In this document: positions 5,643 to 32,505 of the stretch, one piece after another
Layout: every line of letters starts with the position of its first letter
Numbering within the stretch: position 1 is the stretch's first letter
From: a virus
IMG/VR virus record: IMGVR_UViG_3300020401_000012
Location: 1 to 32,505 of that record
Reading direction: 5' to 3' (one strand)
DNA length: 32,505 bases
Notes under the pieces: generated by a model
The model's input: the letters and a program-made list of their open reading frames with translations, nothing else
Database searches by the model: none
Told to the model about the DNA's origin: nothing
Made by a program: the position numbers and the translations under genes

Positions 5643-6080
5643 TTACAGCCCCAGCCTATCCAGGACCGCTTGGAGTGTTCCCTTTAAAAATGGTTGCGCA
5701 ATACATTTACGATTGAAGGCCCTATATCCTGCTATGATTGTTGAATGGTCCCTATTTAATACCCTGCCAATTTGTGGGTATGATAAAATGGTATATTCAA
5801 CAGCTATCTTGTAAACAATTTGCCTGGCTAGTACAGCTGGGACCCTGCGCCTGGGGCTTATTATTTCCCTGGGCTGGACGCCAGTAATATCAGCTGCCGC
5901 AGTAATAATATCTCTGAGCGCAGGGCCTTGGCTGAAATTTCCAGAATGTCCAGCGCTGGATACAGCAGCCTGGTTGCCTTTATCTTTAGTTTGTAAATGT
6001 CTGTTTTGTACCCTTTTATTTCTATTATCTGGGTCTGTTCCTGGTCTGTTATTATCTTGAAGTCTGCTATGTAATGGCAT
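5643..6080 (-). CDS. Stand-alone DnaA domain IV (DNA-binding) protein
   Basis: Residues 54-122 of this 145-residue protein match the C-terminal DNA-binding domain of DnaA: LRDIITAAADITGVQPREII, SPRRRVPAVLARQIVYKIA, then YPQIGRVLNRDHSTIIAGY with the signature RDHSTI at 110-115 that contacts the DnaA box. The AAA+ ATPase is absent. Residues 1-52 are polar and unordered (N, D, R, Q, K) and coincide with 220 bases shared with the DUF1064 gene in another frame. No other start exists between 6080 and the domain. It likely binds DnaA-box-like sites on phage or host DNA and either recruits host replication proteins or competes with host DnaA. Confidence 0.85.
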   Translation of the reverse strand: MPLHSRLQDNNRPGTDPDNRNKRVQNRHLQTKDKGNQAAVSSAGHSGNFSQGPALRDIITAAADITGVQPREIISPRRRVPAVLARQIVYKIAVEYTILSYPQIGRVLNRDHSTIIAGYRAFNRKCIAQPFLKGTLQAVLDRLGL

Positions 6081-6247
6081 AAATGCTTACCCCCTATTGT
6101 TAATTTTATTCTGGGCTGCAATTCAACAGCCCTTATGTTACCAGCTGCAAGGCCTGGCAGAATATGGCACAAATAAAAAGCGCCTTCTGCCCTGCTGCTG
6201 AACCGCTGGCCATTTATAGTTACAGCCCTGGCCTTATACTTTGTCAT
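5861..6247 (-). CDS. DUF1064 family protein, PD-(D/E)XK nuclease fold
   Basis: The 128-residue product starts MTKYKARAVTINGQRFSSRA and matches DUF1064 throughout: RFSSRAEG with E21, ELQPRIKL, HYIADFKI with D62, and IIEIKGYKTDIYKLK with E76-x-K78 followed by K81. These give the metal-binding D...ExK core of restriction-like nucleases. Members occur in phages and are proposed junction-resolving or mismatch-type endonucleases; the exact activity is not established. It overlaps the RHH gene by 14 bases upstream and the DnaA-IV gene by 220 bases downstream. The conserved core continues into the shared region, so the overlap is real for this protein. Confidence 0.8.
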   Translation of the reverse strand: MTKYKARAVTINGQRFSSRAEGAFYLCHILPGLAAGNIRAVELQPRIKLTIGGKHLCHYIADFKIITDQEQTQIIEIKGYKTDIYKLKIKATRLLYPALDILEISAKALRSEILLLRQLILLASSPGK

Positions 6248-6434
6248 TCTTTGCCAGGGCCTGGGCTAGTAATATTTCAACCATACTGGCAAGGCTGCGC
6301 CTCTGCTGGCTGGCTAATTCTTTAACCTGGCTTTTTATTTTTTCGTCTATTTCAGCGTACAGCGGCACCAAATTAGATTTTTTTTTGATTTTTTTTTCAT
6401 GCAAAAAAGCCTGGTTTCTTGCGGTGTTTGGCAA
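6234..6434 (-). CDS. Ribbon-helix-helix (Arc/CopG-like) regulator
   Basis: This 66-residue protein is first in the minus-strand unit. Residues 21-60 show the RHH plan: a short strand NLVPLYAEI, helix A DEKIKSQVKELASQ and helix B SLASMVEILLAQAL. Residues 1-20 are strongly basic. Start is TTG at 6434 with a GGGGG ribosome binding site 7 bases upstream. RHH proteins act as dimers and usually repress their own promoter. Being adjacent to the divergent control region with two CTCTATAA repeats, it is a good candidate for the repressor of that region. Confidence 0.75.
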   Translation of the reverse strand: MPNTARNQAFLHEKKIKKKSNLVPLYAEIDEKIKSQVKELASQQRRSLASMVEILLAQALAKNDKV

Positions 6435-6473: not shown

Positions 6474-6501
6474 TTGACAATATCATAGCAATATATATAT
6501 T
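6474..6501 (+). promoter_or_regulatory. Sigma70-type promoter for the antirestriction unit
   Basis: A perfect -35 (TTGACA) and a 5/6 match -10 (TATATT) are spaced by 16 bases, 41 bases upstream of the ardC-like start. It is the best consensus promoter noticed in the genome and would be read by host RNA polymerase, so early expression is likely. Confidence 0.7.
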
Positions 6502-6512
6502 TATCTCTATAA

Positions 6513-6540
6513 GAACATTTTGATAACAGAAAGGAAACAG
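6513..6540 (+). promoter_or_regulatory. Candidate operator and leader, copy 1
   Basis: GAAC at 6513, seven bases, TAAC at 6524, then AGAAAGGAAACA. The same arrangement is found at 9016-9042 before the recombinase gene. GAAC-N7-GAAC is the inverted form of the alphaproteobacterial SOS box GTTC-N7-GTTC; this differs at one base. It overlaps the expected transcription start and the ribosome binding site AAGGAAA. Confidence 0.5.
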
Positions 6541-6542
6541 AA

Positions 6543-7451
6543 ATGAGTAAACAAAATGAACACTTAAAGAAAATCCAGGCAGCTATCTTAGCTGAGATGG
6601 ATAACCATGGGACAGACTGGTTAAAGCCTTGGGCTGCTAAAGCAGCTGAAGGGTTCCCTTACAATGCTATCAGCAAAAAACAATACAATGGTTTTAACCC
6701 ATTCTGGTTGTCAGCTGTTAGCCTTGAGCGTGGGTATAAGTCTAGCCAATGGGCTACATTCAAACAATGGACTGATAAAGGCGGTAGTTTAAAAGGCGCT
6801 AAGGGTAAAGGCGTCCCAGTCTTTTACTGGTCTGTATCTGAATACAAAGATAAGAATGACCTGGACGATAGCGGCAAGCCTAAAGTTAAAAAGGGTTTTA
6901 TCTTTAAAAACTACATTGTCTTTAATCGTGATGAAGTTACTGGCCTGCCAGCTGAAGAGAAACTAGCGGACCCAGTTGCTGTATTTGACCAGGTAAATGT
7001 CAATCAGTTTGTTGACAATACCCAGGCCAATATAATTTATGGCGGAAATCGTGCCTGCTATATTCCAGCCCTGGACCAAATCAATATGCCTAATGCTAGC
7101 GATTTTAAAGGGACCAAAACTAGCAGCGCTGAAGAGGCTTTTTATTCTACGCTGTTACATGAATTGGTACATTGGACTGGCGCAGATAAAAGGCTAAAGC
7201 GTGGCAAGGGTAATGCCTTTGGCAGCAGCGAATATGCTTTTGAAGAATTGGTAGCTGAAAGTGGCGCTATCATGTTGTCAGTATTGCTGGGCGTATCACC
7301 AGCACCAAGAGCAGACCATGCACAATATTTGAATGGCTGGAAGAAGGCAGTTAAAGATAATCCAAAAGCTATCTTTAGCGCCTTTGGTAAGGCTGGCAAG
7401 GCTGTTGAATATTTACAATCACTACAACAAAAGGAAGAGCAGGCAGCCTAA
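6543..7451 (+). CDS. ardC: ArdC-type antirestriction protein with zinc metallopeptidase domain
   Basis: The 302-residue protein combines the N-terminal ssDNA-binding domain of ArdC/TraC1 (residues 5-130: QAAILAEMDNHGTDWLKPW, YNGFNPFWLS, KGGSLKGAKGKGVPVFYW, FIFKNYIVFNRDEVTGLP) with a C-terminal zincin-like domain: HELVH at 206-210 and a third ligand in EELVAE at 234-239. The family protects incoming DNA from restriction. It is the first gene after the strongest promoter, as expected for an immediate-early antidefence protein. Complete active-site residues suggest a working protein. Confidence 0.9.
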   Translation: MSKQNEHLKKIQAAILAEMDNHGTDWLKPWAAKAAEGFPYNAISKKQYNGFNPFWLSAVSLERGYKSSQWATFKQWTDKGGSLKGAKGKGVPVFYWSVSEYKDKNDLDDSGKPKVKKGFIFKNYIVFNRDEVTGLPAEEKLADPVAVFDQVNVNQFVDNTQANIIYGGNRACYIPALDQINMPNASDFKGTKTSSAEEAFYSTLLHELVHWTGADKRLKRGKGNAFGSSEYAFEELVAESGAIMLSVLLGVSPAPRADHAQYLNGWKKAVKDNPKAIFSAFGKAGKAVEYLQSLQQKEEQAA

Positions 7452-7459
7452 GGGCTGCC
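7442..7459 (+). other. Stem-loop over the ardC stop codon
   Basis: GGCAGCC and GGCTGCC form a perfect 7-base-pair stem with loop TAAG that contains the stop codon. There is no following T run, so it is not a normal terminator. It may stabilise the message end or damp expression of the downstream gene. Confidence 0.4.
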
Positions 7460-7475
7460 CTGCTAGGGGGTTATT

Positions 7476-7664
7476 ATGATTAAATTTATATCCAAACATT
7501 TTGATTTACTCATGTTCATACTGCCAATGCTTGGCCTTATGAGTATGGTAACGCTGCCCTTCATACTGGGTTTTGAAATAGGTATGCTTATAGCAATCGC
7601 TTGGTTTTTCCTTGGCACCATTGCAACCGCTATAAGTTTTATAAAAATAGACCAGGGAAGATAA
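7476..7664 (+). CDS. Small two-span membrane protein
   Basis: The 62-residue protein starts MIKFISKHFDLLMFILPMLG and has two hydrophobic segments (about 9-32 and 35-56) ending SFIKIDQGR. Ribosome binding site AGGGGG lies 6 bases upstream. It follows the ardC-like gene in the same early unit. Small early membrane proteins of phages often act in superinfection exclusion or entry defence, but nothing in this sequence identifies the function. Confidence 0.6.
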   Translation: MIKFISKHFDLLMFILPMLGLMSMVTLPFILGFEIGMLIAIAWFFLGTIATAISFIKIDQGR

Positions 7665-7674
7665 AGAAGGAAAC

Positions 7675-7926
7675 ATGACAAATAAAACAATGACAAAAGA
7701 CGAGCAAATAAAAGAACTCAAAGAGCAGTTAGAGTTCTACAAAGAAAACTCTGTAATGATATGTGGCTTTTCCTCTGATGATGATGATGGAGAAAGAGCG
7801 GAAGAGTTAGGACTAGCAGAGGGTGAAACCTTTTTTGATTTTGATGAAGAAGGTTTTATAGATGACGCCCTTTATCAACTAGGCCAAAAATATGACAGAG
7901 TTTTTCAAGCAGGGGAGGAGGTATAA
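7675..7926 (+). CDS. Small highly acidic protein
   Basis: The 83-residue product begins MTNKTMTKDEQIKELKEQLE (a likely coiled coil) and then becomes very acidic: SSDDDDGERAEELGLAEGET and FFDFDEEGFIDDALYQLG. Aspartate and glutamate make up nearly a third of the residues and outnumber lysine and arginine about three to one. Ribosome binding site AAGGAAA is present. An acidic small protein next to ArdC could be a DNA mimic that inhibits a DNA-binding defence protein, but no known DNA-mimic family is recognised. Confidence 0.6.
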   Translation: MTNKTMTKDEQIKELKEQLEFYKENSVMICGFSSDDDDGERAEELGLAEGETFFDFDEEGFIDDALYQLGQKYDRVFQAGEEV

Positions 7927-7930
7927 AAGT

Positions 7931-8080
7931 ATGGCTAAAGTAATTGTTTATCATGCAGTCAATGAAGAAGAAAAAGAAATTCTAATTGATATACATGAAA
8001 TTCAACAAGAGTGTATTAGGGAAATGAAAAAAGAATATCCCAAATATAAAGTAGAAATTGTTGACGACCACCCACTATAA
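7931..8080 (+). CDS. Hypothetical 49-residue protein
   Basis: ATG at 7931 has a strong ribosome binding site (GGAGGAGGT), which favours it over the upstream frame start at 7892 inside the previous gene. The product MAKVIVYHAVNEEEKEILID ... IQQECIREMKKEYPKYKVEI looks like a small alpha/beta protein. The family is not recognised. It belongs to the accessory block between the antirestriction gene and the terminator at 8950. Confidence 0.55.
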   Translation: MAKVIVYHAVNEEEKEILIDIHEIQQECIREMKKEYPKYKVEIVDDHPL

Positions 8081-8108
8081 AAACTTCAACACTTCACAAT
8101 AATAACAA

Positions 8109-8128
8109 GGCGCCCTGGACTGGGCGCC
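8109..8128 (+). other. GGCGCC stem-loop between small early genes
   Basis: GGCGCCC and GGGCGCC make a perfect 7-base-pair stem with a 6-base loop TGGACT, 25 bases before the next start. No T run follows, so readthrough is likely. It may insulate the next message or act as a processing site. A similar stem lies at 8659-8682. Confidence 0.45.
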
Positions 8129-8153
8129 TACATTAGAAAAGGAAACAAACAAA

Positions 8154-8639
8154 ATGAAAAAGAAAATATATCTAAGAACAACCAGAAACTTGTACGCCAT
8201 AGAAGAGAATGGCCTAAAGGTTTTTTATTCATACAGCACGCCAGTTGCTTTTCAATACAAGGGCGCCTTGTATATATCTGAAAATGTCTGGTCTGTAACA
8301 ACCGCCAAACATTTAAACTGGATTGAAGATTATTGTAATGTTACCAGAAAAAAACACAGATGGAACAATGCAATATTTGAAGAGCGCTTAGCTGAGTATA
8401 TGCAGCTGCGCCAATTCAACAAGGCTGCGCCAGAACCAGTTGACAATTTAAAAGTTGTTAGCGGTGTAGCTGCTGCCTTTGGATTGTTAGCAGATAACAA
8501 AGAACAGAAGAACAAATTTCAAAAGCGGTTCTTTGAAACTATCCCAGGAATATCTTTTCCCCAGGACTGGGACCAGCTGCCAGAAGAAGAAAAAGAAAAG
8601 AGACTAGCCGCAGTCATAAAGGCTGGCCGCAATGCTTGA
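8154..8639 (+). CDS. Uncharacterised phage protein with a VTTSKH-like motif
   Basis: The 161-residue protein begins MKKKIYLRTTRNLYAIEENG. Residues 24-52 (VFYSYSTPVAFQYKGALYIS ... WSVTTAKHLNWI) match a small uncharacterised family of phage and bacterial proteins with the pattern SY-x-T-x-VA ... W-x-VTT-(S/A)-KH. A helical C-terminal half follows, ending FPQDWDQLPEEEKEKRLAAV. The function is unknown. It has ribosome binding site AAAGGAAACA and overlaps the next gene by 8 bases. Confidence 0.65.
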   Translation: MKKKIYLRTTRNLYAIEENGLKVFYSYSTPVAFQYKGALYISENVWSVTTAKHLNWIEDYCNVTRKKHRWNNAIFEERLAEYMQLRQFNKAAPEPVDNLKVVSGVAAAFGLLADNKEQKNKFQKRFFETIPGISFPQDWDQLPEEEKEKRLAAVIKAGRNA

Positions 8640-8820
8640 GAATGTAACCAATAGAACAAGGGCGCCAAAGAATGGGCGCCCTATCGTTTGCCCTAAATGT
8701 TATAGGGTCCAGGTTGTTTTTACTTTTGCCTGGCCCAGGTCTCTAAGGGTTTGCGATAATTGCGGCAAGGGTAGCCTTAAACATAAATGGTTAACGCTTA
8801 ACATAAACAACCATAAATAA
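8632..8820 (+). CDS. Small zinc-ribbon protein
   Basis: The 62-residue product contains two knuckles, CPKC at residues 20-23 and CDNC at 41-44, separated by a hydrophobic beta segment (RVQVVFTFAWPRSLRV), which is a Cys4 zinc ribbon. Similar short zinc-ribbon proteins are common in phage early regions and may bind nucleic acid or host polymerase. It starts inside the end of the upstream gene. A GGCGCC stem-loop (8659-8682) lies early in the coding sequence. Confidence 0.65.
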   Translation: MLENVTNRTRAPKNGRPIVCPKCYRVQVVFTFAWPRSLRVCDNCGKGSLKHKWLTLNINNHK

Positions 8821-8866
8821 AAAAATGAAACAGCTAAGGGCAGCGAAATCAAAAGTTATTGAAAGT

Positions 8867-8895
8867 TTTGTAAAATCAAAGTATGGTTTTACAAA
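8867..8895. repeat. Inverted repeat upstream of the serine recombinase, candidate crossover site
   Basis: TTTGTAAAA (8867-8875) and TTTTACAAA (8887-8895) are perfect inverted copies with an 11-base spacer. Serine recombinases act on sites with imperfect inverted arms next to their own gene, so this could be an attachment or resolution site. It could equally be an operator. Confidence 0.45.
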
Positions 8896-8949
8896 TCATG
8901 GGGGGGAATGTTTCCTTCTATGTTCTTTAGCTCACCCTCCCAGAACTAG

Positions 8950-8983
8950 CCCTGGTCCTAGAAATAGGCCAGGGTTTTTTTTT
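8950..8983 (+). terminator. Rho-independent terminator
   Basis: A 10-base-pair stem (5' arm CCCTGG-CCTA with one bulged T, 3' arm TAGGCCAGGG) closes a GAAA tetraloop and is followed by nine T. This is a textbook intrinsic terminator ending the transcript that starts near 6510. Confidence 0.92.
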
Positions 8984-9002
8984 CTTTGATTAATATTTTA
9001 TT

Positions 9003-9042
9003 TGTGATAATTTAAGAACAAGAACATAACAGAAAGGAAACA
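9003..9042 (+). promoter_or_regulatory. Extended -10 promoter with GAAC-N7-TAAC operator and leader, copy 2
   Basis: TGTGATAAT at 9003-9011 is an extended -10; the -35 is weak. GAAC at 9016, TAAC at 9027 and AGAAAGGAAACA at 9031-9042 repeat the leader at 6513-6539. The same regulator and ribosome binding context therefore seem to control both plus-strand transcripts. Confidence 0.5.
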
Positions 9043-9046
9043 AAGT

Positions 9047-9745
9047 ATGTATGATGATAAAGAAATAGTATGTTTGCTGAGAGTATCCAGGAAGGTACAG
9101 CAAAACGAGAACCAGGAATACCTGGTTAGAAATGCTTTTCCCAATGCCAACATAACCTGGTTTAAAGAGCATGGCGTTAGCGGAAAAACATATAACAAAG
9201 ATAGGCCCCAGCTGCTGGCCGCAACAAAGCAAGCAATCAAAATGAATGTGCCTTTTGTTGTTGCCAATATTTCCAGGCTAGGCAGGGACCTTGCAGAAGT
9301 TTCAGCCTGGTATAGAGACAATGTTATGTCTGGTAAACTTCAGTTGATAGCATTGGACCAGCCAGGATTAGAACAAGAAACCGCAGGAATATTTTTTACT
9401 ATTCAACAGACAGAACGAATAAAGATATCCCAGCGTACCAAGGCAGCCTTGGATAGGAAACAACAAGAGATAAAAGAAAAAGGTTTCTTTATCAGTAAGG
9501 CTGGCAATCGTATTGAGCGCCTTGGTAATACAACTAAGGCCAACGGATTGAAGGGTGCAGCGACAAATAAAAAGAACGCTGAAGAGTTTGCGCAAAAGTA
9601 TTTGCCAATCATTACTCACCTAAAATCAGAAGGCCTTACAATAAAACAAATAGCTGAGGACCTAAATGCCAAATCTATCCCTACTGCAAGAGGTGGGTTG
9701 TGGCATACATCATCAGTTATGAATATCCTAAGGAGGGCTGCATGA
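9047..9745 (+). CDS. Serine site-specific recombinase
   Basis: The 232-residue protein has the resolvase/invertase catalytic domain: LLRVSRKVQQ with nucleophile S14, FKEHGVSGKTYNKDRPQL, and ISRLGRDLAE at 75-84 with the R77/R80 pair. A helix (TERIKISQRTKAALDRK) leads to a C-terminal DNA-binding part LTIKQIAEDLNAKSIPTARG, WHTSSVMNIL, as in the recombinase family. It is near resolvase size, much smaller than large phage serine integrases. Possible roles are resolution of multimers, DNA inversion or integration. An inverted repeat at 8867-8895 lies just upstream. It heads an operon with the exonuclease/annealase genes. Confidence 0.88.
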   Translation: MYDDKEIVCLLRVSRKVQQNENQEYLVRNAFPNANITWFKEHGVSGKTYNKDRPQLLAATKQAIKMNVPFVVANISRLGRDLAEVSAWYRDNVMSGKLQLIALDQPGLEQETAGIFFTIQQTERIKISQRTKAALDRKQQEIKEKGFFISKAGNRIERLGNTTKANGLKGAATNKKNAEEFAQKYLPIITHLKSEGLTIKQIAEDLNAKSIPTARGGLWHTSSVMNILRRAA

Positions 9746-9885
9746 TAATTAAAACTATCTTAGAGGGCATGGCATTTGTGGCCATGCTTGTTTGTTTGTA
9801 TGTACTCATTATGAGTGCATGCGCTTTGAACGATAAATGTTTCTGTTACTACAAGGGAGATGAACTATGTCAGAAATTAAAATAA
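9742..9885 (+). CDS. Small cysteine-containing membrane protein
   Basis: The start ATG at 9742 overlaps the recombinase stop (ATGA) and has the ribosome binding site AGGAGGG; the longer frame from 9700 lies inside the recombinase gene. The 47-residue product MIIKTILEGMAFVAMLVCLY and onward has one membrane span, then SACALNDKCFCYYKGDELCQ with five cysteines in all after the span start. A weak lipobox-like MSAC occurs. The function is unknown. Confidence 0.5.
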   Translation: MIIKTILEGMAFVAMLVCLYVLIMSACALNDKCFCYYKGDELCQKLK

Positions 9886-10814
9886 GCGGTAAGAAAACTA
9901 TAACTGGCCAGGTGCTTTCAGCAAGCCAGGTGCCTTGTATCTTACTAGGCAAGGACGCTTACAATACTGCAAACGAAATGCTGGACATGCACCGCAAGGC
10001 GAAGGCTGGCGTTGAGGTAATAAATAAAAAAGTCTTTTCAAAAAATGCTTTGTTGAGGGGTGCCTACCTGGAACATGCAATAGTTCCCTGGTATCTACAT
10101 ACACTCAAGGACGAAGGCATAGAGGCTAAGACTGAAGAACCTAAGAAGGCATTTATCCTGGAGGATATAAAGCTGGGCGCCACGCTGGATAGAATAATTA
10201 AACTATCTAAGGGCAGCGAACTTACCATTGGGGATAACACCTTTACTGGTAAAGGTTGCATGGAAGTAAAGACAGACTGGTATCATAAAGATTTTAAGAT
10301 GGAATGGAAAATCCAACTCAATACTCAAATGATATGTAGCGGTCTTGAGTGGGGTATTGTTGTATGTCTTGATGGACAAGCAGGCAAGTTAAAAGTCTGG
10401 GGTTTTCATAAAGACGAAAAGCTATGTCAAATAATTATAGAGGCATGCAAACAATTCTGGACAATAGTTGATGACCCAGAGGACAGCTATCCAGAGCCAG
10501 AGCCAGAGCAAGAGGACCAGCCAAAGGTAATGGTTGTTGAGCCGCAGCAAGATAATTTAAATCTTGATGTTGTTATCAATGATTACAAGAAGGCGTCAGC
10601 TGAGGCGGCCTCCTGGACCAAGATAAAAAAAGAAAATCAAGAACTACTGGAACTTCATATGGACGGAATAGGTGCAGAGATAATGGTTGTTGGCAATCAC
10701 TCTGTCCAGGCTACCACAAAGTCTGTACCTAAAAAGAAATATGTTGAGGTCCCAGGAGAATACACCACCAGGTCAACATTTAAAATTTCAACAAAGGAGG
10801 AAACAGATGAATAA
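9867..10814 (+). CDS. YqaJ-type viral recombination exonuclease
   Basis: This 315-residue protein resembles lambda-exonuclease/YqaJ nucleases: N-terminal segment with SQVPCILLGKDAYNTANEM, RGAYLEHAIVPWYLHTL, then the PD-(D/E)XK core with D108 in GATLDRI and E133-V-K135 in CMEVKTDWYH, and the following helix EWKIQLNTQMICSGLEWGIV with the conserved glutamine. A Pro/Glu-rich linker (about 202-215) and a C-terminal helical domain follow. It degrades one strand of duplex DNA to expose tails for the annealing protein encoded next. Ribosome binding site AAGGGAG is present, overlapping the previous gene by 19 bases. Confidence 0.85.
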   Translation: MSEIKISGKKTITGQVLSASQVPCILLGKDAYNTANEMLDMHRKAKAGVEVINKKVFSKNALLRGAYLEHAIVPWYLHTLKDEGIEAKTEEPKKAFILEDIKLGATLDRIIKLSKGSELTIGDNTFTGKGCMEVKTDWYHKDFKMEWKIQLNTQMICSGLEWGIVVCLDGQAGKLKVWGFHKDEKLCQIIIEACKQFWTIVDDPEDSYPEPEPEQEDQPKVMVVEPQQDNLNLDVVINDYKKASAEAASWTKIKKENQELLELHMDGIGAEIMVVGNHSVQATTKSVPKKKYVEVPGEYTTRSTFKISTKEETDE

Positions 10815-11724
10815 AGACCTATCACTATATAAGCCAGATAACATTCAGCAGGCAATGGAGTTTGCAGAAGTCATATGTAAGTCTGGCCTGGTCCCAGATA
10901 GTTTCCAGGGCAAGCCGCACAATGTAGTTGTGGCTGTGCAATGGGGCGCTGAGATTGGATTAAAACCTATGCAGAGTTTACAAAACATTTCTGTTATTCA
11001 AGGAAGGGCTGCCCTTTGGGGAGATAGTGTCCTGGCCCTAATCAAGCAGCAGCCAACATTCAATGGCTGTACTGAAACAACAACTGGCAAGCTGTCTGAT
11101 AAGTCAATGGTTGCCAGGTGTGAGATGGCTAGGGTTATGCCTTCTGGTAAAGAGGAAGTAACTATCAGAGAGTTTAGTATGGAGGACGCTCAACAAGCAG
11201 GCCTGCTGAACAAGAAGGGACCCTGGCAGCAATACACCAAAAGAATGTTACAACTAAGGGCAAGGACATTCTGTGCAAGGGACGCTTTCCCAGACGCCTT
11301 GAAAGGTTTGACGACAGTTGAGGAAATGCAGGACTATCCAGAGCCGCAGAAGGTAAAGATAACTGAGCCAGTAATAAAGCCAGATGAGGTAAAGAAGGTG
11401 CTTGAGGCGCCAAGTGATGGCAACCTAAAACTACCAACAACTAAACTTGACCTAAAGATACCAGGCAAGGAAGGTGCAACAACTTATGAACAACATGAGT
11501 TTGCTAATGAGTATGCTGGTCTCATGCTTGATATGTTTAAGTGTAAGCTGGACCCAGCTGAAAAAAGAACTAGGCTCAAGGAACTAGAAAAGGTAAACAT
11601 TCAAAGCCTGCATAAATTAGATGATAAAGATGTAATGAATGAACTCTTGAAAAAGAGATTGTCATACAACAAGTCCTTATCAATAGAGGCCAAGGAACTG
11701 GAGGCAAACAATGAACCAGATTAG
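10807..11724 (+). CDS. recT: RecT-family single-strand annealing protein
   Basis: ATG at 10807 follows AAGGAGGAAACAG, a strong ribosome binding site, and overlaps the exonuclease end by 8 bases; the longer frame from 10687 is inside the exonuclease gene. The 305-residue protein has the RecT pattern VQWGAEIGLKPMQSLQNISV, QGRAALWGDSVLALI, CEMARVMPSGKEEVTIREFS and PWQQYTKRMLQLRARTFCAR. It pairs complementary single strands after exonuclease resection and would support recombination-dependent replication. The C-terminal 100 residues are charged and less conserved. Confidence 0.9.
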   Translation: MNKDLSLYKPDNIQQAMEFAEVICKSGLVPDSFQGKPHNVVVAVQWGAEIGLKPMQSLQNISVIQGRAALWGDSVLALIKQQPTFNGCTETTTGKLSDKSMVARCEMARVMPSGKEEVTIREFSMEDAQQAGLLNKKGPWQQYTKRMLQLRARTFCARDAFPDALKGLTTVEEMQDYPEPQKVKITEPVIKPDEVKKVLEAPSDGNLKLPTTKLDLKIPGKEGATTYEQHEFANEYAGLMLDMFKCKLDPAEKRTRLKELEKVNIQSLHKLDDKDVMNELLKKRLSYNKSLSIEAKELEANNEPD

Positions 11725-11959
11725 AATTGGTCTTACACCTAGACAAGCTGAAGTATTACACTATATCAAAGTGTACTATAATGAGTATGGATACTATCCA
11801 ACTGTCAGAGATATCTGTAAGGGTAAGGTGTCTAACCAAAAGGTTATCAAGCCTATGGTTGCAACATCAAACGCTCATAGAATATTGAATGTCCTAAAAG
11901 ATAAAGGTTACATTCTAAAAGAAGTAGCAAGCGCCAGGGGAATTGCTATAATCAAATAG
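11711..11959 (+). CDS. LexA-like DNA-binding domain protein without protease domain
   Basis: The 82-residue protein matches the LexA N-terminal winged helix: GLTPRQAEVLHYIKVYYNEY, GYYPTVRDI, then HRILNVLKDKGYILKEVASA, RGIAIIK. A complete LexA would continue with a self-cleaving S24 domain of about 120 residues, which is absent; the stop at 11957 is followed by structured non-coding DNA. It may repress or compete at SOS-like boxes without being inducible. Candidate targets are the GAAC-N7-TAAC motifs at 6513 and 9016. Ribosome binding site GGAGG is 7 bases upstream and it overlaps the recT end by 14 bases. Confidence 0.8.
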   Translation: MNQIRIGLTPRQAEVLHYIKVYYNEYGYYPTVRDICKGKVSNQKVIKPMVATSNAHRILNVLKDKGYILKEVASARGIAIIK

Positions 11960-14720: not shown

Positions 14721-15133
14721 TATTCAACATTCCATACTTCAGCCCATTTATCATCAATGGCTTTATGTAATGCAGTTATATCTGCTTTTATTTCATCAGT
14801 AGGTACAGCTAATTCAGAGGCATTATATTTATCTGTTACTGCTCTGTCTTTTTGCTGTCTGATTAATGGTTCGTACATAGCTTTTACTGCATTGATTGCA
14901 GCATCATCAGCTATAACAAATTTGTTTTTATTACTCTCATTATATTTTGATTTATATTCAGACCAAAATGTTACATACACCTTGTCTCCGTCAAAGTGCC
15001 AGTTAACTGGTGGAACAAACTCTTCATCTTTACCAGGACCTGGTTGAGAGGGTAATAGCGTAGGGTGAACTATATTTTCTTTCTTGAGAGTAGTTTTATA
15101 TAGCTTTCTTTCTAGGTGTGCTTTGTAAGTCAT
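14720..15133 (-). CDS. Hypothetical protein after the RCC1 tail protein, possible fibre chaperone
   Basis: This 137-residue protein begins MTYKAHLERKLYKTTLKKEN. A Pro-rich segment PTLLPSQPGPGKDEEFVPPV leads to WHFDGDKVYVTFWSEYKSKY and a helical acidic C-terminus (LHKAIDDKWAEVWNVE). Position directly after the tail receptor gene, the size and the helical C-terminal half resemble tail-fibre assembly proteins, but no specific family motif is seen. Ribosome binding site TTAGGAGAT. Confidence 0.5.
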   Translation of the reverse strand: MTYKAHLERKLYKTTLKKENIVHPTLLPSQPGPGKDEEFVPPVNWHFDGDKVYVTFWSEYKSKYNESNKNKFVIADDAAINAVKAMYEPLIRQQKDRAVTDKYNASELAVPTDEIKADITALHKAIDDKWAEVWNVE

Positions 15134-15141
15134 ATTATCTC

Positions 15142-17208
15142 CTAAGGGTTAATTTTGTGCCAGAACCTAAAGGTAGTATTGTAATTGGTTCCATGTTGAT
15201 AATAATAGTTGTTGCCAATACCCCATAATGAGTTATCACTAAACCTAGCAAAGTGAGACCAGTAACCAGAGTAGTGATGACCTATGGAATATATATCTTC
15301 AAACCTAATATCATCAGAACCTAACCACCAAGAAGTCTGGCCAGTTAGCGTATGCTGATTACCAGCTGGGTACATAAAGGCATTAGTAAAATTTCTTGCG
15401 GCTGTATTGGCTTGATACTCATATGGTTGAGCCATATAGCCCCATATCCATAGACGCCTTTGCTTATCTAATCCCCACCAACCAGGCGCATTGTATCCGC
15501 TGGTTCTAAATGGGAAACAAGCAATCATTTCATTTCTAGGAAATAGAACATTGTTTGTCTGAATAACACCATCAGCAGAAGAGGTAACTGTTTTATGATA
15601 ATTGCTGCCATGGGTAGTTGTTTGAGGGTCTAGGACAGCGGAGTTTGCAGTTGTGTTTCCTTGCATTAAGGCACCATGTCCATTGTATCCTATAACATTA
15701 AATGACATACCAGTATTATTGGCAATCGTATAAGTGTACATATCACCTGGTCCATCAACTCCAGAAGGATTACCCTTCCAGGCTACTACACTTGTAGTTG
15801 AGGCATTACCAGCTACTTGTACAGCTGCATAATTCTCAGAGCCGCCTATCTGGGTCCAGGAAGATAAATCAGTTGTATTACCTTGGCCTAGATTTCCAGA
15901 GGCATTTTCGCCAATTCCATAAAGATTGCCAGAGGTATCAATGTAATATCCATTAGCTGCAATATTTCCATTATAATAGTAAGTACAATTACAAAGTATC
16001 TGTGCGCAGTTTGATACAGCTGTCATTTGTTGAGGTGAGGTATGAGCAGCGCCTAATGATGATATACCGCTAGTATTTGAACCGCAGAAAAAAGCATTGC
16101 CGCTACTATCAACAAAGTAAGTACAGCTATATCCAGCTGATATCTGTACAATGTTGCTTAATCCACTAAGTTTTGTTGGTACACTTGTATTATTGGTATT
16201 TCCAAGACCATGACTTCCAGAGCCTCCCCAGCCAAAAGAATAAACATCTCCATTATGAGTAATAACAAAGTAATGAGTATTACCCATACCCTGGTATCCT
16301 TTAGCATCATTCGTTGCCACACAAGATACTTCCATACTCACAGAGTTTTGGGTTGCATCTGGTCCAAAGTAAGGGTTCCTTACAAGTTGGTACCTATCTG
16401 TTGTATCCCCCAATCCCAACTGGCCAGAGCCATTTTCTCCGCCAACCCATATATTGCCTTTATTTGTAAGTAAAACAGTAGAATGAGTATTGAACCATTG
16501 CCTTACAAAATATTCATCAGCGGCCATTCCGCCAAATTCCATACTCAACTGAGCGTAATGGTGGCTCATCTCATATGTTCCAGTATTAGTACCAGAACCT
16601 AAACCAGGTTGCTGGTATCCAGCAGTCATAGGTTCGTTCTTACCATTAATCCAATGTAATGAAGTTGTTGTGCAAATATGTTGGTCTGTGTCTCTTTTGA
16701 CTGGACCGCATCTTCCGTTAATCATTCCGTCTTGAGGTATCCAATCAGCATTAGCACCAGACTTACCATTGTATCTTGCTAACCAGGGATATTTACCATC
16801 AGTTCCTCCAAGCGTACTATTGCTTGTATTGGCATATAGAGGAATATTACAGCTTAAAATATCTTGCCCTTCAAAACCTCCAACTGTTCCAAAGCCTAAA
16901 GTGTTTGCGCTTGTAACTTTTACAGCTGAACCAACATTACCAACTGGTACCCTTATGGCATTGTTACCATCATGGCTTAGTAAATCGCCTGCTGTTGTCA
17001 AAGGCAGAGTTCCGTCTGCCATCAAGTTCCAATGAGTGGTGTTACTATTAGAAGGTGCGCCTGCCGCAGAACCAGTCTTGTTAGTCGTGTTTACATATAT
17101 CCAGGAACTACCAGAATGACTTACAACATCATCTGCCTCATATGTATTGCTGGTGGAGAAGGCCCCTCTCCAATGAAATTTTATTTTGCCTAAATCAACT
17201 GTTGCCAC
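15142..17208 (-). CDS. Tail protein with RCC1-type beta-propeller repeats, probable receptor binder
   Basis: The start is GTG at 17208 behind a strong AGGAGGT. Residues 10-63 (FHWRGAFSTSNTYEADDVVS, HSGSSWIYVN, WNLM) look like a small carbohydrate-binding module seen at the N-terminus of marine phage tail proteins. From about 240 there are RCC1-like repeats: GNIWVGGENGSGQLGLGDTT (251-270), GDVYSFGWGGSGSHGLGNTN (320-339), GNAFFCGSNTSG, GNLYGIGENASGNLGQGNTT (427-446), and a last one NSLWGIGNNYYYQHGTNY. A propeller would form a rigid tip for host surface binding. No enzymatic motif is seen. Confidence 0.8.
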   Translation of the reverse strand: MATVDLGKIKFHWRGAFSTSNTYEADDVVSHSGSSWIYVNTTNKTGSAAGAPSNSNTTHWNLMADGTLPLTTAGDLLSHDGNNAIRVPVGNVGSAVKVTSANTLGFGTVGGFEGQDILSCNIPLYANTSNSTLGGTDGKYPWLARYNGKSGANADWIPQDGMINGRCGPVKRDTDQHICTTTSLHWINGKNEPMTAGYQQPGLGSGTNTGTYEMSHHYAQLSMEFGGMAADEYFVRQWFNTHSTVLLTNKGNIWVGGENGSGQLGLGDTTDRYQLVRNPYFGPDATQNSVSMEVSCVATNDAKGYQGMGNTHYFVITHNGDVYSFGWGGSGSHGLGNTNNTSVPTKLSGLSNIVQISAGYSCTYFVDSSGNAFFCGSNTSGISSLGAAHTSPQQMTAVSNCAQILCNCTYYYNGNIAANGYYIDTSGNLYGIGENASGNLGQGNTTDLSSWTQIGGSENYAAVQVAGNASTTSVVAWKGNPSGVDGPGDMYTYTIANNTGMSFNVIGYNGHGALMQGNTTANSAVLDPQTTTHGSNYHKTVTSSADGVIQTNNVLFPRNEMIACFPFRTSGYNAPGWWGLDKQRRLWIWGYMAQPYEYQANTAARNFTNAFMYPAGNQHTLTGQTSWWLGSDDIRFEDIYSIGHHYSGYWSHFARFSDNSLWGIGNNYYYQHGTNYNTTFRFWHKINP

Positions 17209-31197: not shown

Positions 31198-32505
31198 TTA
31201 TCCTTCCGCTGGCCTATCTGGGGCTGCACCTTCTACATCTGGATTTGGACCGCCAGGCGGTGCGCCTTCACTTTCAGCCATCATTTGTTGAACATCTGGA
31301 GGACGCCCTGCTGCTGCTGCTGCACCAGGCCCCTCAGCTGGTGGACCCCCAGGACCAGCCATTCCTTGTTGCTGCGCCAGCATCTGCTGAGCCTGCTGTA
31401 TAATTTGCGCTCTCTGTTCTGGAGTAGTTCTAAGGTTGGCATCAATACCTAAGTTGTCTAATAAGTAATCCCCAACAGCCTCTGGATTTATTAGGGCGCC
31501 ACCAGCACCACCCAGAGCCTGGGATATCTGCATAAATTGTAATATGTTTCCAACCTTCTCCATATTCTGTGCCATAGCCAAAGGAGACTGAGGTTCAATC
31601 TGTACTTCTAATCCATTTAATTTTAGTGGTAGTTCTATCAAACCTTCTTGGTCCATTAACTCTAAAGTCCTGGTAATGATTGGCGTCATAGTTTCGTTAA
31701 TCAATCTACCAAAAGCAGAACCTAAGTTTTGACTTAACTCTTTCATTCGTTCTACAATTTCAGTTGCAGACCTTGCACTCATGTTATCTGGAGGCAGGCT
31801 TTCATCTAAAAGAGTTTTCTTAATATTCATTCGTAAATCATTTGCTATCAATGAAGATAGGTTAGCATCTCCACTTCTAGGCAATGGTGCTAAACTTGGA
31901 CCCCTTGGGCCTCCGTTACTAGATACACCTATGATAGCACCAGGTACTATTTGAATAGCTTGAGGATTAAGAACGCCATCATCTACCGCAGTAAATACTC
32001 CACCAATACTTAGGCTGGCATTTTTTAAGTTTAATTCTACAACTTTGTTCAGCGTCTTAATATCTGGTAAGGCATATAAACAAACACCTCTTCCATATAT
32101 TTCACCAGGCGCAACCATGTACCTGGATATAATCCAAGGAAAAGATTTTAATGTTTTATGAAGGATTTTATAATCCCCCTCCATTGTCATTAAACAATAA
32201 TCAAAATCTCCATCATCATTTGGATAAGTAGCCTCTAAGAGTTCAACTCTTTCCATAGGCCTTTCTTGATATTTCTGAGCAAGTTCTTCTGGTATATCGC
32301 TTTCTGGAAATTCTTTTTGTATAGCCTCAAAAGGTTTTTTAAATTTTCTAAATACAAAATTAGGTTTACCCATAGGCCCTTCGTCAAAAGTAACCTGGTA
32401 CATAGGTATAGAAGTAAACTTTATAGGCTGAACATCATCTCCTTTTTGAATGAGCATGCAGGCAGTACCCACCGCTAAATCTAAAAGAAACTCACCTATT
32501 GCTAA
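31198..32505 (-). CDS. Portal (head-to-tail connector), C-terminal part
   Basis: This is the continuation of the portal gene that starts at 443 on the circle; bases 32429-32505 duplicate 1-77. The apparent GTG start near 32472 is internal. The core has the connector-family features of an extended beta/alpha body (for example YGRGVCLYALPDIKTLNKV) and a stretch near DNMSARSATEIVERMKEL. The C-terminus is rich in Q, A, G and P (LAQQQGMAGPGGPP and onward), probably a flexible tail. It ends 2 bases before the start of the next gene at 31195. It acts at the unique capsid vertex and should bind the terminase encoded at 1640-3172. Confidence 0.9.
   Translation of the reverse strand, partial: LAIGEFLLDLAVGTACMLIQKGDDVQPIKFTSIPMYQVTFDEGPMGKPNFVFRKFKKPFEAIQKEFPESDIPEELAQKYQERPMERVELLEATYPNDDGDFDYCLMTMEGDYKILHKTLKSFPWIISRYMVAPGEIYGRGVCLYALPDIKTLNKVVELNLKNASLSIGGVFTAVDDGVLNPQAIQIVPGAIIGVSSNGGPRGPSLAPLPRSGDANLSSLIANDLRMNIKKTLLDESLPPDNMSARSATEIVERMKELSQNLGSAFGRLINETMTPIITRTLELMDQEGLIELPLKLNGLEVQIEPQSPLAMAQNMEKVGNILQFMQISQALGGAGGALINPEAVGDYLLDNLGIDANLRTTPEQRAQIIQQAQQMLAQQQGMAGPGGPPAEGPGAAAAAGRPPDVQQMMAESEGAPPGGPNPDVEGAAPDRPAEG
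32429..32505. repeat. Terminal direct repeat, copy 2 (circular assembly overlap)
   Basis: Exact copy of bases 1-77. Removing one copy gives a 32,428-bp circle. It lies inside the portal coding sequence, and a true packaged terminal repeat inside that gene would be unusual. Confidence 0.95.

Follow-up and report, generated by a model that had tools for sequence, protein, structure and literature searches.

We begin with the plus-strand early block of a 32.5-kb podovirus record from a marine podovirus lineage (IMG/VR virus record IMGVR_UViG_3300020401_000012, positions 1 to 32,505; "the window" below means this whole stretch of 32,505 nucleotides). The minus strand carries genes for the terminase, a portal-like head-tail adaptor and the tail tube, and the early block encodes an ArdC-like protein, small genes, a serine recombinase, a RecE/YqaJ-like exonuclease, a RecT-like protein and, as its last gene, a protein of 82 amino acids that we call LexA82. 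Our subject is this small protein together with a block of 27 bases that is present twice, once in each of two early leaders, and that contains a candidate operator. The elements of the locus are:

6234..6434, minus strand: small ribbon-helix-helix-like protein of 66 amino acids, divergent from P1 (Pfam RHH_5, E 1.4e-4, below the curated cut-off)
6474..6501, plus strand: early promoter P1, TTGACA-16-TATATT (11/12 consensus matches; TTGACA is likewise placed in the closer relatives)
6513..6527, plus strand: candidate operator O1, GAAC-N7-TAAC, directly after the P1 -10 element (across the lineage, P1 keeps a gap-7 repeat)
6528..6539, plus strand: AGAAAGGAAACA, the ribosome-binding site (RBS) part of the ArdC leader, complementary to an RNA loop at 8909-8917
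6543..7451, plus strand: ArdC-like anti-restriction protein, first gene of the P1 unit (Pfam ArdcN, MPTase-PolyVal; phrog_7245)
9003..9011, plus strand: P2, extended -10-like TGTGATAAT with a weak -35 element (relatives have TTGCAA...TATATT or similar there)
9016..9030, plus strand: candidate operator O2, GAAC-N7-TAAC, directly after the P2 -10 element (7/8 or 6/8 versions at P2 in most close relatives)
9031..9042, plus strand: AGAAAGGAAACA, the RBS part of the leader of the recombinase gene, with complementarity to the same RNA loop
9047..9745, plus strand: serine recombinase of 232 amino acids, first gene of the P2 unit (Pfam Resolvase, Recombinase)
9867..10814, plus strand: RecE/YqaJ-like exonuclease (phrog_434)
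10807..11724, plus strand: RecT-like annealing protein (phrog_561; Pfam RecT slightly below cut-off)
11711..11959, plus strand: LexA82, a bare LexA DNA-binding domain of 82 amino acids, last gene of the unit (Pfam LexA_DNA_bind, E 2.9e-9, above cut-off)

Each block consists of GAAC-N7-TAAC followed by AGAAAGGAAACA; block 1 (6513-6539) reads GAACATTTTGATAACAGAAAGGAAACA and block 2 (9016-9042) reads GAACAAGAACATAACAGAAAGGAAACA. An initial annotation of this stretch had placed the twin blocks at exactly these positions and directly after the -10 elements, and both statements hold, the -10 element being TATATT at P1 and the extended -10-like sequence at P2. On the window alone the motif is unconvincing, because 0.87 copies of GAAC-N7-TAAC are expected from shuffling where two are found, and 21% of the shuffles reach at least two. 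The genome-end repeat aside, the window has just one exact direct repeat of 17 bases, the 17-mer ATAACAGAAAGGAAACA at 6523 and 9026; 12% of dinucleotide shuffles contain at least one such repeat. Since the RBS lies within the last 12 bases of the block, part of the likeness could be that of the RBS alone; the similarity of the P1 and P2 leaders, compared within and between genomes, is weakly significant (P 0.034). Intergenic matches of at least 7/8 to GAAC-N7-GAAC, on both strands of the window, number three: the two blocks and 8911-8925 on the minus strand. The significance of the repeat comes from its conservation in relatives and not from the counts in the window.

These relatives were gathered by scans with RecT, recombinase, ArdC and terminase. 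They form a lineage with terminases 70-92% identical to that of the window, in which the order recombinase, YqaJ, RecT, LexA82 is kept, and a contig from a metagenome-assembled genome (MAG), L122, widens the lineage with the LexA82 block to a terminase identity of 67%. With P1 defined as the leader of the first plus-strand gene, it was read in 29 genomes, and 20 representative leaders were tested. GAAC is present in 18 of the 20, and a second half-site matching at least 3/4 letters follows at a gap of 7 in 15 of these 18. Gap 7 is the sole peak: every other gap from 0 to 17 is seen in 0 to 3 leaders, shuffling downstream of the GAAC anchor gives a mean of 1.7, and 15 was reached in none of 5000 shuffles. 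The near genomes have the gap-7 repeat in 8/8 cases and the distant ones in 7/10. Of random 75-base segments from the same genomes, 2.7% contain a site that matches in at least 7/8 letters and 0.27% a perfect site. The motif search across related phages that the initial annotation had called for comes out in its favor for most lineages, the repeat being kept together with the mini-LexA gene. A generic period-11 self-match test likewise confirms the period (5.5 against a null of 4.3 of 7); we prefer the GAAC-anchored test because the generic one partly caught another repeat, GCTATC-N5-GCTATC.

The form of the site in the relatives is instructive. Perfect P1 sites are found in close relatives, namely GAACATGACACGAAC (L013, L028, L029), GAACATGGCACGAAC (L022), GAACATGAACAGAAC (L025) and GAACGTAATCAGAAC (L026), and L058 has the GAAC/TAAC form of the window (GAACATGACGATAAC). 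The distant sites are GAACAGTTTACGAAC (L086), GAACACCACATGAAC (L114), GAACGATGTATAAAC (L062, L069, L116), GAACGTTTGTTAAAC (L057) and GAACATTAGCTGAAT (L078), and L122 has three tandem GAAC half-sites with a period of 11 (GAACGTTAGATGAACGTTGTTTGAAC). The spacers and flanks have diverged (ATGACAC, ATGGCAC, ATGAACA, GTAATCA, GTTTGTT and AGTTTAC are among the spacers), the half-sites and the gap are unchanged, and the repeat always lies directly downstream of the -10 element. An apparent absence of the motif from the closest relatives, L003-L011, proved wrong: P1 there precedes an extra gene, and L005 carries GAACATTATATAAAC. As a separate observation, P1 of L114 (reverse-complement coordinates about 15125-15151) has a possible third half-site, GAACACCACATGAACGCAGTGCGAAT, which gives three units of period 11.

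The protein encoded by the last gene is, as the initial annotation had it, only the DNA-binding domain of LexA. Besides the Pfam match, the AlphaFold model of LexA82 (predicted local distance difference test score, pLDDT, 80.6) has nine best fold matches in the PDB that are all LexA, no S24 protease match is found in LexA82, and the protein ends after 82 residues. The N-terminal winged-helix domain of a full LexA repressor is present and the C-terminal S24 domain, self-cleaving and dimerising, is not; because this defining protease domain is missing, LexA82 does not count as a full LexA repressor. It does fit the description of a truncated phage LexA homologue, a phage gene that is a LexA DNA-binding domain only. 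The gene is present in every fetched contig that reaches through the end of the block, with orthologues of 73-111 amino acids that are 56-72% identical in close relatives. No LexA match is detectable in MEP301, the nearest cultured relative, whose leader at the equivalent place is also free of the GAAC repeat. A scan of viral contigs with the single protein LexA82 gave no matches, and the 17-member alignment was too diverse for scanning. A short LexA-like protein of marine phages, 36% identical, is also annotated as 'putative transcriptional repressor LexA' in the Pelagibacter phages HTVC103P/HTVC104P, which are of a different type (54 kb).

Combining the repeat with the protein, we propose that LexA82, as a non-cleavable, phage-owned winged-helix protein of the LexA type, acts as a repressor of P1 and P2, the early promoters of its own phage, a reading to which we assign a probability of roughly 0.58. 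LexA82 would bind the side-by-side GAAC half-sites, which are one helical turn apart and overlap the transcription starts of P1 and P2, and would thereby block RNA polymerase; with the operator directly after the -10 element, a bound protein should stop initiation. Because LexA82 is encoded at the end of the block, its level is expected to rise after those of the other early genes, so that it would accumulate late and then switch off its own early unit, a delayed negative feedback that would end early expression. Normal LexA is released through RecA. As LexA82 has no cleavable domain, it should not be released in this way.

Several points weigh against this proposal. Having no dimerisation domain, LexA82 could repress tightly only by binding the tandem half-sites cooperatively. 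Both sites in the window are degenerate, 7/8 versions of a site found in perfect form in relatives, and the P2 sites of close relatives are mostly 7/8 or 6/8. The phages share ancestry, so the counts among relatives are not independent draws. The only experimentally studied phage mini-LexA that we found, gp6 of phage GIL01, is an activator. Finally, the initial annotation had named, as the observation that would count against it, relatives that keep the gene and lose the motif; most lineages offer no such case, but three distant ones, the L082 group, L106 and L112, do, with LexA82 present, the GAAC repeat weak or absent, and a different recognition helix, the last being a post hoc association.

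The next question is which protein the site is made for, and here the recognition helix is informative. GTTC-N7-GTTC is the site of alphaproteobacterial LexA, and CTGT-N8-ACAG that of the beta- and gammaproteobacterial protein (PMC3323433). The initial annotation assigned the repeat to the alphaproteobacterial SOS-box type, rightly so: it is a direct repeat of period 11 with a conserved gap of 7, it sits at a promoter, and it matches GTTC-N7-GTTC (either strand) at 7/8 in the window and perfectly in relatives. The operator architecture is thus shared with alphaproteobacterial LexA (PMC3323433) in reverse-complement orientation, and the recognition helix is similar as well. LexA82 has TSNAHRIL and its relatives SNVHRIL, NGMHRIL or GGIHRIL, which resemble the alphaproteobacterial SGVHRLI and not the SANAAEEHL of gamma- and betaproteobacteria. 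In four alphaproteobacterial genomes the LexA helix is SKSG[VI]HRLI, and the lexA loci retrieved from them contain GTTC-N7-GTTC in one orientation or the other; the locus of a Vibrio LexA with SANAAEEHL carries CTGT-N8-ACAG. The differences are that LexA82 lacks the self-cleaving dimerisation domain, that it is phage-borne, and that its turn between helices 2 and 3, before the recognition helix, is longer than in cellular LexA.

The same likeness raises the alternative that the repeats are operators for the host LexA, which would tie the early promoters to the SOS state of the host and leave LexA82 as a decoy or competitor, or acting elsewhere. The exact match to the alphaproteobacterial SOS box speaks for it, as does the use of host LexA in this manner by phages such as GIL01 (PMC6182141). 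The nearest cultured phage, however, is MEP301 (tail protein 46%, terminase 65%), which infects an OM43 methylotroph, and beta- and gammaproteobacterial LexA reads the other type of site. A terminase search of bacterial genomes gave no host, its close matches being short contigs in MAGs binned with unrelated groups of bacteria, which keeps host LexA in play as a rival. Moreover, the presence of the site goes with the recognition helix of the phage protein: among 25 phages, 17/17 with a helix of the LexA82 type carry a site matching at 7/8 or more, against 2/8 of the others, and counted by lineage the figures are 11/11 against 1/5. This association suggests that the phage protein, rather than host LexA, may read the site, and it is suggestive only, because the helices were grouped post hoc. 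We consider the host LexA reading unlikely, though it deserves to be kept in mind.

Could LexA82 be a regulator of another kind? The closest precedent is gp6 of GIL01, a tectivirus of Bacillus thuringiensis, a truncated LexA homologue that binds phage promoter DNA and activates the late promoter P3 (PMC6182141). By analogy LexA82 might be an activator, or a late-gene regulator, with no repressor role at P1 and P2. The site of gp6, however, is a palindrome, GaCACAnnTGTGaC, overlapping the -35 element, whereas the one proposed for LexA82 follows the -10 element of two early promoters, a repressor position, and has the form of a direct repeat; the conserved site is thus not of the gp6 kind, palindromic and upstream of the promoter. 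The window offers no third intergenic operator except the one inside a hairpin loop, and the podoviruses that carry LexA82 are unrelated to the tectivirus. A phage mini-LexA therefore has a precedent in gp6, LexA82 is not a copy of it, and we give the activator reading very little weight. Two further sites were considered as operators and rejected: one at the start codon of LexA82 itself (7/8 in the window and 8/8 in L013) is not conserved in other lineages, and the hairpin loop (8911, minus strand, 7/8) loses the N7 spacing in relatives.

Ribbon-helix-helix proteins often control the adjoining divergent region, and tandem sites spaced by about one turn are among those they can bind. The protein encoded beside P1 could by this token bind the GAAC repeat; its gene adjoins P1 in the window and in most relatives, and in three of the lineages that lack the gene there the repeat is weak or missing. 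On the other hand, L057, L062 and L069 have no such gene beside P1 and keep GAAC-N7-AAAC, L116 has the gene and yet the same site as L069, and the GAAC site fits the alphaproteobacterial LexA precedent directly. Several distant phages that do carry the gene have at the -10 element the repeat GCTATC-N5-GCTATC, a better candidate for this protein. All in all, its binding to the GAAC repeat appears improbable. The second direct repeat of period 11, GCTATC-N5-GCTATC, is seen in L063, L072, L078, L083 and L094 (TGCTAGCACCGTGCTATC and similar). There it overlaps the P1 -10 region, some 45-75 bases ahead of the first gene on the plus strand, and is a possible target of the neighbouring ribbon-helix-helix protein.

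The second half of the block calls for a different explanation, which may lie just upstream of P2:

8859..8887, plus strand: possible promoter of the RNA, TTGAAA-17-TATGGT (weak, 9/12)
8893..8985, plus strand: predicted RNA of about 90 nucleotides; its first hairpin has an anti-leader loop (GTTTCCTTCTATGTTCTTTA), and its second is a terminator hairpin with a U tract behind it (z -2.4)

The first hairpin has a loop of 25-30 bases and the terminator hairpin is strong; the element could alternatively be the 3' end of the P1 transcript. Five other sequence types (L003/L005, L022, L025/L028, L026 and L058) have the same two-hairpin element at the equivalent position, with folding z-scores of -3.2 to -5.5 where tested, and the predicted RNA has no Rfam match. 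Two stretches of the recombinase leader, AAGGAAACA and AAGAACATA, recur in the window loop as exact reverse complements, TGTTTCCTT and TATGTTCTT, and the ArdC leader is complementary to this loop over 9 and 8 bases. In the L005 type, loop and leaders are altered together (AAAGGAAGG or AAGGAAAA, and AGAACAAAA). Pairing is stronger between a loop and the leaders of its own genome than between a loop and the leaders of other genomes (permutation P 0.003 for P1 and 0.013 for P2), and 1 of 1000 shuffled loops matched the observed pairing sum. We find that the shared RBS half of the block is better explained by this predicted antisense RNA, which would probably act as a second, translational brake on both leaders, their RBSs included, and so on the translation of both units.

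Carried further, the pairing could suggest that the twin block acts at the RNA level only, as the target of a hairpin RNA that hides both RBSs, with the GAAC repeat a by-product. In line with this, the loop of the window and L005 types has blocks of 8-9 nucleotides that can pair with each half of each leader, and the pairing is genome-specific, as just described. The gap-7 repeat is kept, however, where no hairpin precedes the recombinase (L013, L029 and the distant set), and a fixed period of 11 bases is a signature of DNA binding rather than of antisense pairing. In the L022, L025 and L058 types the two complementary blocks come in opposite order, so that a single continuous duplex is impossible; the window loop also pairs with several other RBSs, and single-gene duplex energies fail to single out both leaders, which rank 6th and 4th of 44. 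An RNA-only role is accordingly quite improbable. A combined view, in which the 27-base leader serves two regulators as the DNA operator of the mini-LexA and the RNA target of a phage small RNA, can be put forward tentatively, as a possibility we would not bet on; transcriptional and translational feedback would then shut off the early genes jointly, and one element would evolve under both constraints.

The predicted RNA is comparable to known small RNAs. The alphaproteobacterial alpha-r14 and cuckoo RNAs (PMC3927594, PMC10746234) have hairpin loops with an anti-Shine-Dalgarno motif, and the L058 type carries their CCUCCUCCC. They have three hairpins, each with this loop, whereas the phage RNA is predicted to have two, one of them with an anti-Shine-Dalgarno loop, which is UUUCCUUCU in the window and varies in sequence along with the phage's own leaders. 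OppZ and CarZ of Vibrio, autoregulatory small RNAs derived from 3' untranslated regions (PMC7398697), are operon-end RNAs acting back on their operon, as proposed here; the phage RNA is only predicted and may have its own weak promoter.

If LexA82 acts as the repressor proposed above, the phage uses the DNA-reading head of LexA without the SOS release mechanism, and if the host is alphaproteobacterial, the phage could occupy host SOS boxes. Almost no gene-control circuits are known from uncultured marine podoviruses, and a conserved mini-LexA with a clear operator that can be aligned throughout the lineage is a directly testable regulator. The lineage offers natural variants, with perfect, degenerate, tripled and altered sites, the last paired with altered recognition helices.

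Some features of the genomes lie outside the proposed circuit. Positions 1-77 of the window are identical to 32429-32505, and because of these identical ends the record is probably complete, from a circularly permuted or terminally redundant genome. A small protein with the C-terminal, DnaA-box binding domain of DnaA is encoded at 5643-6080 on the minus strand (Pfam Bac_DnaA_C, 1.2e-14); its gene overlaps a DUF1064 gene and is retained by the genomes of many relatives. At 15142-17208, also on the minus strand, a tail-region protein has RCC1-like beta-propeller repeats (Pfam WD40_RLD, RCC1). In L015 a cytosine-5 DNA methyltransferase-like gene (7688-9250, identified by eye) lies between the recombinase and YqaJ genes, and ArdC is missing there.

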